DNA of 64,000 nucleotides, taken from Daejeonella sp. (lineage in GTDB: Bacteria > Bacteroidota > Bacteroidia > Sphingobacteriales > Sphingobacteriaceae). Numbering within the stretch: position 1 is the first letter of the stretch; each line of letters opens with the position of its first letter. The translations under genes and the position numbers were made by a program. Positions 13,441 through 41,130 of this stretch are shown in pieces. The notes under the pieces were generated by a model. The model worked only from the letters and a program-made list of their open reading frames with translations, was not told the origin of the DNA and ran no database searches. The stretch is from contig NZ_JAUYSS010000068.1 in the NCBI RefSeq assembly GCF_030695525.1, forward strand, positions 1 through 64,000, read 5' to 3'.

Positions 13441-13479
13441 AACAATCCGTAGAGACGCTGCGCTTAACTCTACAGATTG
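13441..13479. repeat. Dispersed palindromic element AACAATCCGTAGAGACGCTGCGCTTAACTCTAC...
   Basis: 33-nt exact match to 124-156, about 13.3 kb away; arms AATCCGTAGAG / CTCTACAGATT. Confidence 0.9.
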
Positions 13480-13500
13480 GAAATTGAAATTAATTGCATA

Positions 13501-13534
13501 AAAAAAGGCTGCCTTTTGCGGGGCAGCCTTTTTT
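13501..13534. terminator. Bidirectional intrinsic terminator
   Basis: AAAAAAGGCTGCC ... GGCAGCCTTTTTT perfect inverted repeat. Confidence 0.85.
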
Positions 13535-13551
13535 ATTCCTTTTATTTTGGC

Positions 13552-36268: not shown

Positions 36269-37156
36269 TTAATGCAATGGCCTTTGTTTGATGATCCCCC
36301 CTTTAGTTTCAGTGATCGCACTCATAACAATAAAAGCCTTGTGATCAATCAGTTCAATTTCTTCTTTTAATTTGGAGACTTCCAGTCGGGTGACAACAGT
36401 AAAGATGATATCAATACTTTTGTTTTTAAATTGAGAATGTTCAAGTCCTCTTTCTCCTTTGTAAATCGTTACACCACGCCCTAGTTTTTGGGTTATTGCT
36501 TCACGTATCTGGGCACTTTTGGATGAAATTATAGTTACCCCAGTGTACTCTTCAATTCCCTGAATAATAAAATCAACCGTCTTGGAAGCCGAGAGATAAG
36601 TCAGAATGGAATATAAAGCTGTTTCTACGTCTAAAATAAAAGCGGCTGCAATGAATATTACAACATTGATTAACAAAATGATATCCCCCATACTCAAAAA
36701 ACTTCTTCTGTTTATATAAACAGCAAGGATCTCAGTTCCATCAATAACACATCCGCCTCTGATTGCAAGACCAATCCCTGATCCCAGAAAGAAGCCACCG
36801 AATATGGATATCAATAATTTATCATCAGTAATTGTTGGAAAATCAATAAAAAAAATAACTGCAGATAGAGATAAAATGGCAATACTTGTTTTGATTGCAA
36901 AACTTTTGCTGATTTGTTTTGCACCCATCAAAATAAATGGGGCATTAAATACGATGATCCAAACAGAAACAGGAATTCCGGTCAGTTGATAAGTTAAAAG
37001 GGAAATGCCGGTAATTCCACCATCAATAAAGTGATTAGGAAGCAGAAAACCTTTTAAGCCGAATGATGCAAGCCCGACTCCCAATAAAATTAGAACAGCT
37101 CTACCGAGATAGATTTTAAACTGCAATAATCTTCTCGATCTTCTGGTTGCTTTCAT
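36269..37156 (-). CDS. YitT family membrane protein (DUF161/DUF2179)
   Basis: GLKGFLLPNHFIDGGITGISLL; C-terminal DUF2179-like GRGVTIYKGERG...TVVTRLEVSKLKEEI. Confidence 0.9.
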   Translation of the reverse strand: MKATRRSRRLLQFKIYLGRAVLILLGVGLASFGLKGFLLPNHFIDGGITGISLLTYQLTGIPVSVWIIVFNAPFILMGAKQISKSFAIKTSIAILSLSAVIFFIDFPTITDDKLLISIFGGFFLGSGIGLAIRGGCVIDGTEILAVYINRRSFLSMGDIILLINVVIFIAAAFILDVETALYSILTYLSASKTVDFIIQGIEEYTGVTIISSKSAQIREAITQKLGRGVTIYKGERGLEHSQFKNKSIDIIFTVVTRLEVSKLKEEIELIDHKAFIVMSAITETKGGIIKQRPLH

Positions 37157-37211
37157 GTCGTTAAAAATACTTCAAAGTTTTGGTGCTATGGAAATTTTAT
37201 TCATCTTTGTT

Positions 37212-37292
37212 ATGAAGATGAGCAAGAATACAATATATACAATCTGGTGGTGGCAAATGGAAGAACATTTGGCAATCAGCAGAGGTATGTAA
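37212..37292 (+). CDS. trpL: Candidate trp leader peptide MKMSKNTIYTIWWWQMEEHLAISRGM*
   Basis: 26-codon ORF with three consecutive Trp codons at 37245-37253, upstream of a terminator and trpD; too short for the ORF track. Alternative start at 37218. Confidence 0.8.
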   Translation: MKMSKNTIYTIWWWQMEEHLAISRGM

Positions 37293-37346
37293 TTTTCGAT
37301 ATAAGGAATTATTTATTAAGGGTTGCCATAAGGCAACCCTTTTTTT
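37254..37346 (+). promoter_or_regulatory. Candidate trp attenuator (1:2, 2:3 and 3:4 helices)
   Basis: CAAATG(37254-59)/CATTTG(37266-71); GGCAATC(37271-77)/GGTTGCC(37321-27); terminator AAGGGTTGCC/GGCAACCCTT. Confidence 0.75.
37318..37346 (+). terminator. Perfect 10-bp intrinsic terminator (attenuator)
   Basis: AAGGGTTGCC-ATAA-GGCAACCCTT followed by TTTTT. Confidence 0.93.
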
Positions 37347-37431
37347 ATGAAATTCGGTTGGATTTATGAAAATTTGAAATAAGAATATTAAAATTGAATG
37401 CTTAAAACGATTCGGATTACTTAATACATTT

Positions 37432-38418
37432 ATGAAGAAGATACTTAACCACCTTTTTGAACACAAAACATTCAGTCGTGAAGAGTCGAAGGAAATACTC
37501 ACGAATATTACACTCGGGAAGTATAATGCCTCTCAAATGGCTGCATTTATGGCTGCCTATTGTATGCGTAGCATTACAGTTGAAGAACTTGAAGGCTTTA
37601 GGGATGGGATGCTTGAACTATGCCTTAAAACGGATCTGAGCGAGTATGAGCTTATTGATCTTTGTGGTACAGGTGGTGATGGAAAGGATACGTTCAATAT
37701 TTCTACCCTGGCTTCATTTGTGGTTGCGGGAGCTGGTTATAAGGTATCAAAGCATGGAAATTATGGGGTATCTTCCGGCTGTGGCTCTTCCAATGTGATG
37801 GAATACCTGGGCTATAAATTCAGAAATGATATTGATCACCTGAAAAAGAGTCTGGATGAAGCCGGAATTTGCTTTTTACATGCTCCGCTATTTCATGCTG
37901 CCATGAAAACGGTTGCGCCAATCCGTAAAGAACTGGGTGTGAAGACCTTCTTTAATATGCTTGGACCATTAGTAAATCCTTCGCGGCCAAAATATCAGAT
38001 GGTTGGAGTATTTAGCCTTGAACTTGCCCGTTTATATGCCTATCTCTATCAGAAATCCAAAATTGGCTATACTATCGTTCATGCTTTGGAAGGTTATGAT
38101 GAAATTTCATTGACCTGTGATTTCAAGACTTTTTCTCCCTCAGGCGAACATATTCATTCGATATCCGATTTGGGCTTTGAGAAAATTGATCCCTCGAAAA
38201 TAGGAGGGGGAAGTACTGTTCAGGAATCAGCTGAAATTTTTAAAGCTGTGCTTGATAGAGAAGGAAGTATTGAGCAAAACAGTGTTGTTCTCTGCAATGC
38301 AGCGGTAGCTATCCGGACAATAAAGCCTGATAAATCCTTTTCCGATTGTTATTATGAGGCTGAAGAGTCCCTGAATAGTGGAATGGCTTTGAGGAGTTTT
38401 AATCGATTATTGTCATGA
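37432..38418 (+). CDS. trpD: Anthranilate phosphoribosyltransferase
   Basis: DLCGTGGDGKDTFNISTLASFVVAGAGYKVSKHGNYGVSSGCGSSNVME. Confidence 0.96.
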   Translation: MKKILNHLFEHKTFSREESKEILTNITLGKYNASQMAAFMAAYCMRSITVEELEGFRDGMLELCLKTDLSEYELIDLCGTGGDGKDTFNISTLASFVVAGAGYKVSKHGNYGVSSGCGSSNVMEYLGYKFRNDIDHLKKSLDEAGICFLHAPLFHAAMKTVAPIRKELGVKTFFNMLGPLVNPSRPKYQMVGVFSLELARLYAYLYQKSKIGYTIVHALEGYDEISLTCDFKTFSPSGEHIHSISDLGFEKIDPSKIGGGSTVQESAEIFKAVLDREGSIEQNSVVLCNAAVAIRTIKPDKSFSDCYYEAEESLNSGMALRSFNRLLS

Positions 38419-39071
38419 AAATTAAGGTTTGCGGAATGAGGGATCCACAAAATATACTCAGTCTTGCTGAAATGAAGCCTGATTATATGGGTTTGATTTT
38501 TTATCCCAAATCAAAGCGTTATATCCCAAATCCGGATAAAGCTATCCTTGCTTCATTACCCGCTTCAATTAATTTAACCGGGGTTTTTGTGAATGAACTG
38601 GAGAATGAGATTGTTGAGAAGGCGATGAATTTTGGTTTAGGCGCAGTGCAGCTTCATGGAGAAGAGTCGCCAGAATATTGCCGGAGTTTGAGAACAAAGC
38701 TAAATAAAAGCAATCCTGATAAGCATATTGAGTTAATCAAGGCTTTTGGAATTTATCCCGGATTCGATTTTAAGGCTCTTGAAAATTATAATGATGTAGT
38801 GGATTACTTTTTATTTGACACCAAAACTTCAGAGCATGGCGGATCAGGTATTGCATTTGATTGGACTATTCTGGATCATTATCAGGGAGAAAAGCTGTTT
38901 TTTTTAAGTGGTGGCTTAAGTCCTGAAAATATCCATGGCTTATTAAATATAGCAATAAACAAAATCTATGCCCTCGATTTGAATAGCAGGTTTGAAATAG
39001 TGCCGGGTTTAAAGAATATAGAAAGCTTAAGATCAGCCTTTCAATTGATCAGGGCAAACAAAATATCCTGA
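38415..39071 (+). CDS. trpF: Phosphoribosylanthranilate isomerase
   Basis: KVCGMRDPQNILSLAEMKPDYMGLIFYPKSKRYI; overlaps trpD. Confidence 0.95.
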   Translation: MKIKVCGMRDPQNILSLAEMKPDYMGLIFYPKSKRYIPNPDKAILASLPASINLTGVFVNELENEIVEKAMNFGLGAVQLHGEESPEYCRSLRTKLNKSNPDKHIELIKAFGIYPGFDFKALENYNDVVDYFLFDTKTSEHGGSGIAFDWTILDHYQGEKLFFLSGGLSPENIHGLLNIAINKIYALDLNSRFEIVPGLKNIESLRSAFQLIRANKIS

Positions 39072-39090
39072 AAAGGAATAATTATAGCAT

Positions 39091-40299
39091 ATGAACAGAG
39101 AATTTATTAAGAGTTCGGTAAAATGGGGTGTAAATAATGAAGGTTACTTTGGTGACTTTGGTGGAGCATATATCCCCGAAATGCTTTACCCGAATGTAGA
39201 AGAGCTTCGTAAGCGTTATCTTGACATCATCTATGAGCCTGGCTTTCAGGATGAATTCCAGATGCTTCTGAGGGATTACGTTGGCAGGCCTTCGCCATTA
39301 TTCCATGCTGAACGATTATCTGCAAAGTATGGAACTACCCTCTATTTGAAAAGGGAGGATTTAAATCATACCGGGGCACATAAGATCAATAATACGATCG
39401 GACAAATTCTATTGGCTGAAAGACTCGGCAAAAAGAGAATCATTGCCGAAACCGGAGCCGGTCAGCACGGTGTTGCGACCGCTACAGTATGCGCTTTGAA
39501 GGGTCTGGAATGTGTGGTTTATATGGGGGAAGTTGATATCGCCCGTCAAGCACCTAATGTAGCCCGAATGAAGATGATGGGTGCAAAGGTTGTACCTGCA
39601 ACTTCTGGCAGTAAAACCCTGAAGGATGCAACGAATGAAGCCATGCGCGACTGGATTAATAACCCGGTAGATACTCACTATATCATCGGATCAGTTGTTG
39701 GTCCGCACCCTTATCCCGACATGGTTTCCCGTTTTCAATCCATTATCTCTGAAGAGACTAAAATTCAGCTTAAGGAGCGAACAGGATCTGAAAATCCGGA
39801 TATTGTAATGGCTTGTGTAGGTGGTGGCAGCAATGCGATGGGGATGTTCTATCATTTTCTGGATGATGAGGACGTCAGACTGATTGCCGTGGAAGCGGCG
39901 GGCCTGGGAGTAAATAGTGGTGAATCTGCTGCAACAACTGCATTAGGCAAAGAGGGAGTATTACATGGTAGCCGTTCGCTATTGATGCAGACAGAAGACG
40001 GGCAGGTTGTTGAACCTTATTCAATTTCGGCCGGGCTTGACTATCCGGGTATTGGTCCGCAGCATGCCCATTTATTTAAAGAAAACCGTGGGGAATATGT
40101 TAGCGTAACCGATGAAGAGGCGATGATTGCAGGCAGACTATGTGCTGAGCTTGAAGGAATCATTCCGGCGATTGAGAGTGCACATGCACTGGCACATTTA
40201 GAAAAGATGGTTTTTACCGGAAAAGAATCTGTTGTAATCTGCCTTTCAGGCCGCGGAGATAAGGATCTGGATACTTACATGAAATACTTTAATTTATAA
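39091..40299 (+). CDS. trpB: Tryptophan synthase beta subunit
   Basis: [44 protein letters not shown]. Confidence 0.97.
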
Positions 40300-40353
40300 T
40301 TAGAAATTACCTGATGGCTTGCCGGATGATAAGTCCGGAATTACTATACAATT

Positions 40354-41130
40354 TTGCTCATGAACAGACTTAATAGATTATTTCAAAATAAAAAGGAACC
40401 GCTTTTATCAATTTACTTTACTGCCGGATATCCCCATTTGGATAGTACCCTGGATATTGCCGAAGCGGTAGAAAAAGCAGGTGCTGATTTTATTGAAATT
40501 GGATTTCCTTATTCAGATCCATTGGCTGATGGCCCTGTCATTCAGAACAGCTCCCATATGGCCCTTCAGAATGGAATGAATCTAAAAGTTCTTTTTCAGC
40601 AGCTTAAAGATTTGCGTAAGCGTATATCCATTCCGGTTTTATTAATGGGTTATGTTAATCCGTTGCTGCAATATGGTGTCAAGAATTTTTGTGATTCATG
40701 TGCCGCGGTAGGGGTGGATGGAGTTATTGTACCAGATCTTCCGATGTATGAATATGAAAACCTGTACAAGGATAATTTTATTCAAAACAATCTGAGCAAT
40801 ATATTTCTGGTTACTCCCCAGACTTCAGAAGAGCGCATCCGGAAGATCGATGAACTCAGTAATGGATTCATTTACCTGCTGTCTTCATCTTCAACTACCG
40901 GTAAAAACCTGACTGTTTCAAATGAAGCAGATGCATACTTTTCCCGTATCCGGGGTATGCAGCTTAAAAATCCCACAATGATAGGATTTGGTATTTCTGA
41001 CATTAAGAGTTTTAATAAAGCTGCAGAATATACCCGTGGTGCAATTGTCGGAAGCGCTTTTGTGAAATTTCTGGATACAGAAAATGCGCTGGAAAGAATT
41101 CCTGAATTTATCAGATCGATCCGGCCTTAG
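40354..41130 (+). CDS. trpA: Tryptophan synthase alpha subunit
   Basis: IEIGFPYSDPLADGPVIQNSS; VIVPDLPMYE; GFGISDIKSF. Confidence 0.96.
   Translation: MLMNRLNRLFQNKKEPLLSIYFTAGYPHLDSTLDIAEAVEKAGADFIEIGFPYSDPLADGPVIQNSSHMALQNGMNLKVLFQQLKDLRKRISIPVLLMGYVNPLLQYGVKNFCDSCAAVGVDGVIVPDLPMYEYENLYKDNFIQNNLSNIFLVTPQTSEERIRKIDELSNGFIYLLSSSSTTGKNLTVSNEADAYFSRIRGMQLKNPTMIGFGISDIKSFNKAAEYTRGAIVGSAFVKFLDTENALERIPEFIRSIRP

Follow-up and report, generated by a model that had tools for sequence, protein, structure and literature searches.

What controls the trpD-trpF-trpB-trpA operon in this bacterium, whose 4.2-Mb draft genome belongs to the Sphingobacteriaceae (Bacteroidota)? In the window, the whole 64,000-nt stretch of DNA analysed here, the operon lies across a 275-nt intergenic gap from a divergent gene for a YitT-type membrane protein (36269-37156, minus strand). 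The original prediction, made from the letters of the window, had read in this gap a Trp-Trp-Trp leader peptide followed by a perfect 10-bp hairpin and a T run, and had proposed a ribosome-mediated attenuator of trpDFBA. The quoted leader and hairpin were confirmed letter for letter at their coordinates. The hairpin (37318-37341) with its T run is the sole terminator-like site in 37000-37500, against 0.3 expected from shuffled sequence, and the 135-nt leader folds with z = -6.9 relative to shuffled versions. The comparative and folding analyses below indicate that the region is very probably a ribosome-mediated transcription attenuator (features in Table 1). Within the operon, the listed trpA ORF begins with TTG at 40354 (window 40354-40362), and the in-frame ATG at 40360 is the likelier start.

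Table 1 Features of the trpDFBA upstream region and operon (window coordinates)
Feature	Position	Strand	Evidence
TTTG, probable -33 element	37179..37182	+	exactly 19 bp before -7; Bacteroidota consensus TTTG / TAnnTTTG
CATCTTTG, probable -7 element; predicted +1 near 37214	37202..37209	+	consensus fit
Leader peptide ORF MSKNTIYTIWWWQMEEHLAISRGM, 24 aa, first Trp at codon 10	37218..37292	+	relatives; covariance-model match
Three Trp codons TGGTGGTGG, proposed stall site	37245..37253	+	at least 2 Trp codons in 124/125 distinct leaders
Segments 1 and 2, long interrupted hairpin	37234..37291	+	folding; apical stem covaries in relatives
Segment 2, TGGCAATC, antiterminator 5′ half	37270..37277	+	pairs with 37321-37328 (GGTTGCCA, one G-U)
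Segment 3, AAGGGTTGCC, antiterminator 3′ partner and terminator 5′ arm	37318..37327	+
Intrinsic terminator 3:4 and T run	37318..37346	+	site scan, covariation
trpD-trpF-trpB-trpA operon, proposed regulated	37432..41130	+	ORFs; Pfam identities for all four

The leader is conserved upstream of trpD

The original prediction had looked to close relatives for the Trp run and the terminator, and both precede nearly every leading trpD gene, in about 140 Sphingobacteriaceae loci. We examined 150 regions upstream of trpD, a number that includes some loci retrieved twice, from separate collections. A script detected, in 139 regions, a short ORF with an early Trp run downstream of an NA..TTTG motif; many of these leaders come from close relatives, and counts should be taken from a dereplicated set (n = 40). 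At three further loci (L047, L097 and L139) the leader is present without the motif, as a covariance model (R1, below) confirms for L047 and L097. One locus is interrupted at a contig end (L106), and at two of the 150 (L037 and L146) the leader was not found. It is also absent where trpD lies behind trpG within a longer operon (L145, L149-L151), and L148 likewise lacks it; the loci with an internal trpD and no leader include those of Algoriphagus and Salinimicrobium (L148-L151). In five Pedobacter loci (L062, L063, L101, L103 and L105) trpD lies a few hundred nucleotides farther from the attenuator, separated from it by repeat-like sequence with many inverted repeats (TTCGTGTCTTCACGAACC...).

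The most conserved feature of the leaders is the Trp-rich ORF with its fixed position of the first Trp. This residue falls at codons 8-12 across the leaders, and at codon 10 in 106/139. Of the 125 distinct leaders, 107 carry three Trp codons and 17 carry two; L017 alone has just one. Residues beyond the Trp run differ among genera. In some leaders (L017, L007, L009, L019, L021 and L044) the middle codon of the run is not Trp; the variants read WCW, WRW, WLW and once LCW, and the third Trp is retained.

A search pattern of the form TTTG-ATG-TGGTGG gave 171 matches in the window's own genome and was dropped as too loose. R1 was built from 32 leaders, none from the window's genus. It matches the window at 37218-37347 (92.4 bits, E 3.5e-18) and, searched against the whole genome, returns the window leader as its best match (E 2.3e-16). 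Counting this genome, 19/20 genomes of the genus are matched at E <= 1.7e-10. A bidirectional terminator-like hairpin elsewhere in the window (13476-13548) gives a weak R1 match (26 bits) through the terminator part only, and is probably an ordinary intergenic terminator.

Start codon and promoter

The leader ORF ends at TAA 37290-37292 and has its Trp codons in frame. Its start had been placed at ATG 37212; it is almost certainly ATG 37218 instead, on comparative and positional grounds, because this puts the first Trp at codon 10, where most leaders have it, because the closest relative (L003) has no ATG at 37212, because the independent covariance model aligns from 37218, and because 37212 lies upstream of the predicted +1. 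ATG 37212, neither conserved nor downstream of that +1, was therefore rejected. The promoter-like motif follows the -33/-7 arrangement of Bacteroidota promoters (PMC7366714). In Flavobacterium johnsoniae the final G of the -7 element sits at -5 (PMC6847099), and the same spacing therefore puts the window +1 at 37214, which is downstream of 37212 and leaves 4 nt ahead of the ATG at 37218.

The leader gene has no Shine-Dalgarno sequence and, as predicted from the -7 motif, almost no 5′ UTR. In the 139 measured leaders the NA..TTTG motif stands 5-19 nt ahead of the leader ATG, which, taking the motif-to-ATG distance minus 4, predicts 5′ UTRs of 1-15 nt over the family and of <10 nt in 117/139. 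In published transcript maps, only 3.7% of 5′ UTRs in Bacteroides thetaiotaomicron are shorter than 10 nt (PMC7366714), and leaders no longer than 10 nt account for 13% in F. johnsoniae (PMC6847099); a Flavobacterium psychrophilum study puts leaderless mRNAs at 5.5% (PMC9723704). Loci that score above the cut-off of the Rfam family RF01692 (L178-L185) mostly have a predicted 5′ UTR of 14-19 nt ahead of the Trp leader (about 0 in L184), longer than the few nucleotides typical of Sphingobacteriaceae.

Three mutually exclusive helices

The trp leader of Escherichia coli has tandem Trp codons near codon 10 and chooses among alternative helices 1:2, 2:3 and 3:4. In the window, helix 1:2 had been proposed as CAAATG with CATTTG. 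This pairing covaries in relatives, but it is only the tip of a longer, interrupted hairpin that holds the Trp codons within its 5′ strand and is closed by a basal stem. The basal stem pairs 37234-37240 with 37285-37291; above it, 37243-37246 pair with 37280-37283, 37248-37252 with 37273 and 37275-37278, and, at the tip, 37254-37259 with 37266-37271. The basal stem joins bases just 5′ of the Trp codons to bases 3′ of segment 2. Folding produced the same long interrupted hairpin in the window and in the 39 other dereplicated leaders, the basal stem being found in 40/40 leaders versus 36% of shuffles, and the energy of the hairpin is low relative to shuffles (z -5.5 for the window; mean z -2.6 for the 40 leaders). 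RNAalifold, run on the family alignment, recovered the terminator alone and not the 1:2 hairpin, because the hairpin occurs in two registers; we therefore used a register-matched set. In its 28 distinct hairpins the tip is 84% paired with 17 double changes, a covariation score beyond that of 500/500 shuffles and of every slid version.

The assignment of helix 3:4 to the terminator held without amendment: it is 97.1% paired, with 18 double changes and covariation above 500/500 shuffles. The proposed 2:3 antiterminator stood as a conserved pairing. In the window it has an energy of -12.3 kcal/mol (p = 0.01 versus shuffles); over the 40 leaders the mean z is -2.3, with 28 below p 0.05. Its register is specific, with 85.7% of cells paired over 34 leaders versus 20-53% when the segments are slid. 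Covariation in 2:3, sought in the same 34 leaders, was absent, the helix being conserved only. The alignment of trpD upstream regions that the original prediction had called for thus bore out the Trp codons and the covariation of 1:2 and 3:4, but not covariation of 2:3. This is to be expected, since segments 2 and 3 each pair with two partners; conservation without covariation is nevertheless weaker proof, and 2:3 is the weakest link in the predicted structure.

Computed folding switches with a stalled ribosome

We folded each of the 40 leaders as a truncated transcript that stops where the loop behind segment 3 ends, with segment 4 absent. A stalled ribosome was represented by masking the leader as far as 14 nt beyond the point where its first Trp codon begins. 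Free of the ribosome, 35/40 leaders formed 1:2 without 2:3; with the ribosome stalled on the Trp codons, 2:3 formed in 40/40. In controls that shuffled the sequence separating the Trp codons from segment 3, these outcomes fell to 41% and 30%, respectively, and the full switch occurred in 11%. In computed folding, then, the antiterminator excludes both 1:2 and the terminator and is released by a ribosome at the Trp codons. The complete terminator folds with greater stability than 2:3, and does so with the leader masked as well, so that the decision must be kinetic, with 2:3 forming first. In E. coli, too, the antiterminator must form first and the decision is kinetic.

As judged from sequence, the region thus has what ribosome-mediated attenuation of trpDFBA requires: an ORF with Trp codons conserved in about 140 loci and presumably translated, an intrinsic terminator before the operon, a promoter-like motif, conserved 2:3 and covarying 1:2 and 3:4. 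From these elements we infer the transcription start, translation, stalling and response to Trp. Transcription would begin about 4 nt short of the leader AUG, and translation would proceed through MSKNTIYTI-WWW. With ample charged tRNA-Trp, the ribosome would clear the Trp codons, reach the stop at 37290 and leave; 1:2 would then fold, segment 3 would be free for segment 4, and RNA polymerase would halt at about 37346. If charged tRNA-Trp runs short, the ribosome would stall on the Trp codons and block 1:2, allowing segment 2 to capture segment 3 as it emerges; with no terminator formed, trpDFBA would be transcribed.

A translated leader and a terminator could also serve other kinds of control, such as TnaC-like arrest by free Trp, or a peptide acting in trans as in Sinorhizobium. 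The W-x-W order, preserved in several leaders despite a changed middle codon, fits such a role for the peptide, and Sinorhizobium meliloti does possess a trp leader peptide that acts in trans (PMC7298713). The residues outside the Trp run, however, vary between genera, unlike those of an arrest peptide, and the Trp codons lie exactly where a stalled ribosome breaks 1:2, in a geometry that fits release of the antiterminator; we regard control of this kind as improbable. A sensor of protein or small-molecule type (a TRAP-like protein, a T-box or a riboswitch) would account for a structured leader with a terminator at its end and would make the ORF incidental. It is the Trp-rich ORF, however, that is most conserved, and a scan of the window against Rfam riboswitches, T-boxes and known leaders gave nothing above cut-off, which leaves a sensor very improbable.

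Instead, the hairpin might terminate constitutively, or mark where an upstream or antisense transcript ends, and the Trp run beside it might be coincidental. The neighbouring gene upstream runs divergently, and a terminator between the two could act on transcripts other than that of trpDFBA. The chance of this is close to nil: the whole module recurs in about 140 loci, covaries and is absent at internal trpD genes, and coincidence is refuted by this conservation. Ribosome-mediated attenuation accordingly remains the preferred reading in what follows.

Relation to known trp leaders

A comparative attenuator study by Vitreschak et al. (2004, FEMS Microbiol Lett) reportedly mentions Bacteroidetes/Chlorobi. 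The original prediction had doubted how far attenuation through Trp codons was documented in Bacteroidota; it had in fact already been predicted there. Bacteroid-trp was listed in 2010 by Weinberg as a cis-regulatory RNA of Bacteroidetes (PMC2864571), and Rfam names it 'Bacteroidete tryptophan peptide leader RNA' (RF01692). It has been found before the trp operon of F. psychrophilum and noted as similar to the E. coli leader (PMC6414381), and another study of that species infers leader-peptide attenuation of amino-acid operons from transcript maps (PMC9723704).

The window leader and RF01692 members are alike in lying before trp genes of Bacteroidota and in combining an ORF with Trp codons and a terminator. 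RF01692 matches mostly precede trpE-containing operons, however, whereas the window leader precedes trpDFBA, apart from trpE. RF01692 (threshold 49 bits) gave no window match at E <= 10 and none in the genome at E <= 0.1. Its scores rise among related trpD leaders: 29.0 bits, at the right place, for the best congener (L212), 38-41 for Pedobacter and Mucilaginibacter, and 51.6, above threshold, for the Sphingobacterium leader L137, which is among those used to build R1. Conversely, each of the eight class-level loci that pass the RF01692 cut-off is found by R1, with scores of 32.6-64.5 bits. At the level of sequence this shows the window leader to be a homologue of RF01692 members, with no formal RF01692 match: one lineage, with the window at its divergent end.

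The enterobacterial leader (RF00513 Trp_leader), which gave no match in the window, shares the logic of 1:2, 2:3 and 3:4 alternatives; the window leader differs in its sequences, its phylum, its lack of a Shine-Dalgarno sequence and its predicted near-absence of a 5′ UTR. In the alphaproteobacterium S. meliloti, the leaderless trp attenuator transcript rnTrpL begins at the ATG of trpL (PMC7298713), whereas the start in the window is only predicted and relatives would have a leader of 1-15 nt. The F. psychrophilum attenuators belong to the same phylum and mechanism class but to a different family, and the passages that describe them do not treat a trpD-first operon (PMC9723704).

A second leader before trpE

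In the same genome trpE lies on contig C67, apart from the window's contig C52, and is preceded by a leader, MNIKQNTTNWWCTLGKGTGHRYFEQF, and a GC-rich terminator. This leader (MNIKQNTTNWWC...; C67 about 109383-109516; L157:1272-1405; L217) occurs genus-wide. R1 matches it weakly (27.8 bits, E 0.025), and it had no Rfam match above cut-off, scoring 18.7 against a threshold of 41 bits for RF00513. Its ORF, Trp codons and terminator are clear, and the predicted 5′ UTR is 2 nt, here and in nearly all genus members. A pairing around its Trp codons, CAAAATAC with GTATTTTG, is retained in many members. Folding placed the antiterminator in both states in many members, and a switch was not demonstrated for this leader. 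The trp regulon thus appears to be split, with separate candidate Trp attenuators before trpE and trpDFBA.

Discussion

The mechanism proposed for trpDFBA is a textbook one, not new in kind, and relatives in Bacteroidota have been catalogued since 2010. What appears new is a divergent, unannotated member of this lineage, a split regulon and leader genes that are predicted to be nearly leaderless; the last two may be of specialist interest. Existing RNA-family models mostly miss the Sphingobacteriaceae trpD leaders. The roughly 140 leaders (40 after dereplication) form a natural set for the study of attenuation without a Shine-Dalgarno sequence and with almost no 5′ UTR.

We give about even chances to a broader proposal, that the genus, and probably the wider Sphingobacteriaceae, has two independent Trp attenuators, both nearly leaderless and without Shine-Dalgarno sequences, in which attenuation is coupled to initiation at the 5′ end. 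If true, this coupling would operate in a phylum in which only about 4-13% of genes have 5′ UTRs this short. For trpD-first operons, ribosome-mediated attenuation is likely to be the standard control across one family of Bacteroidota.
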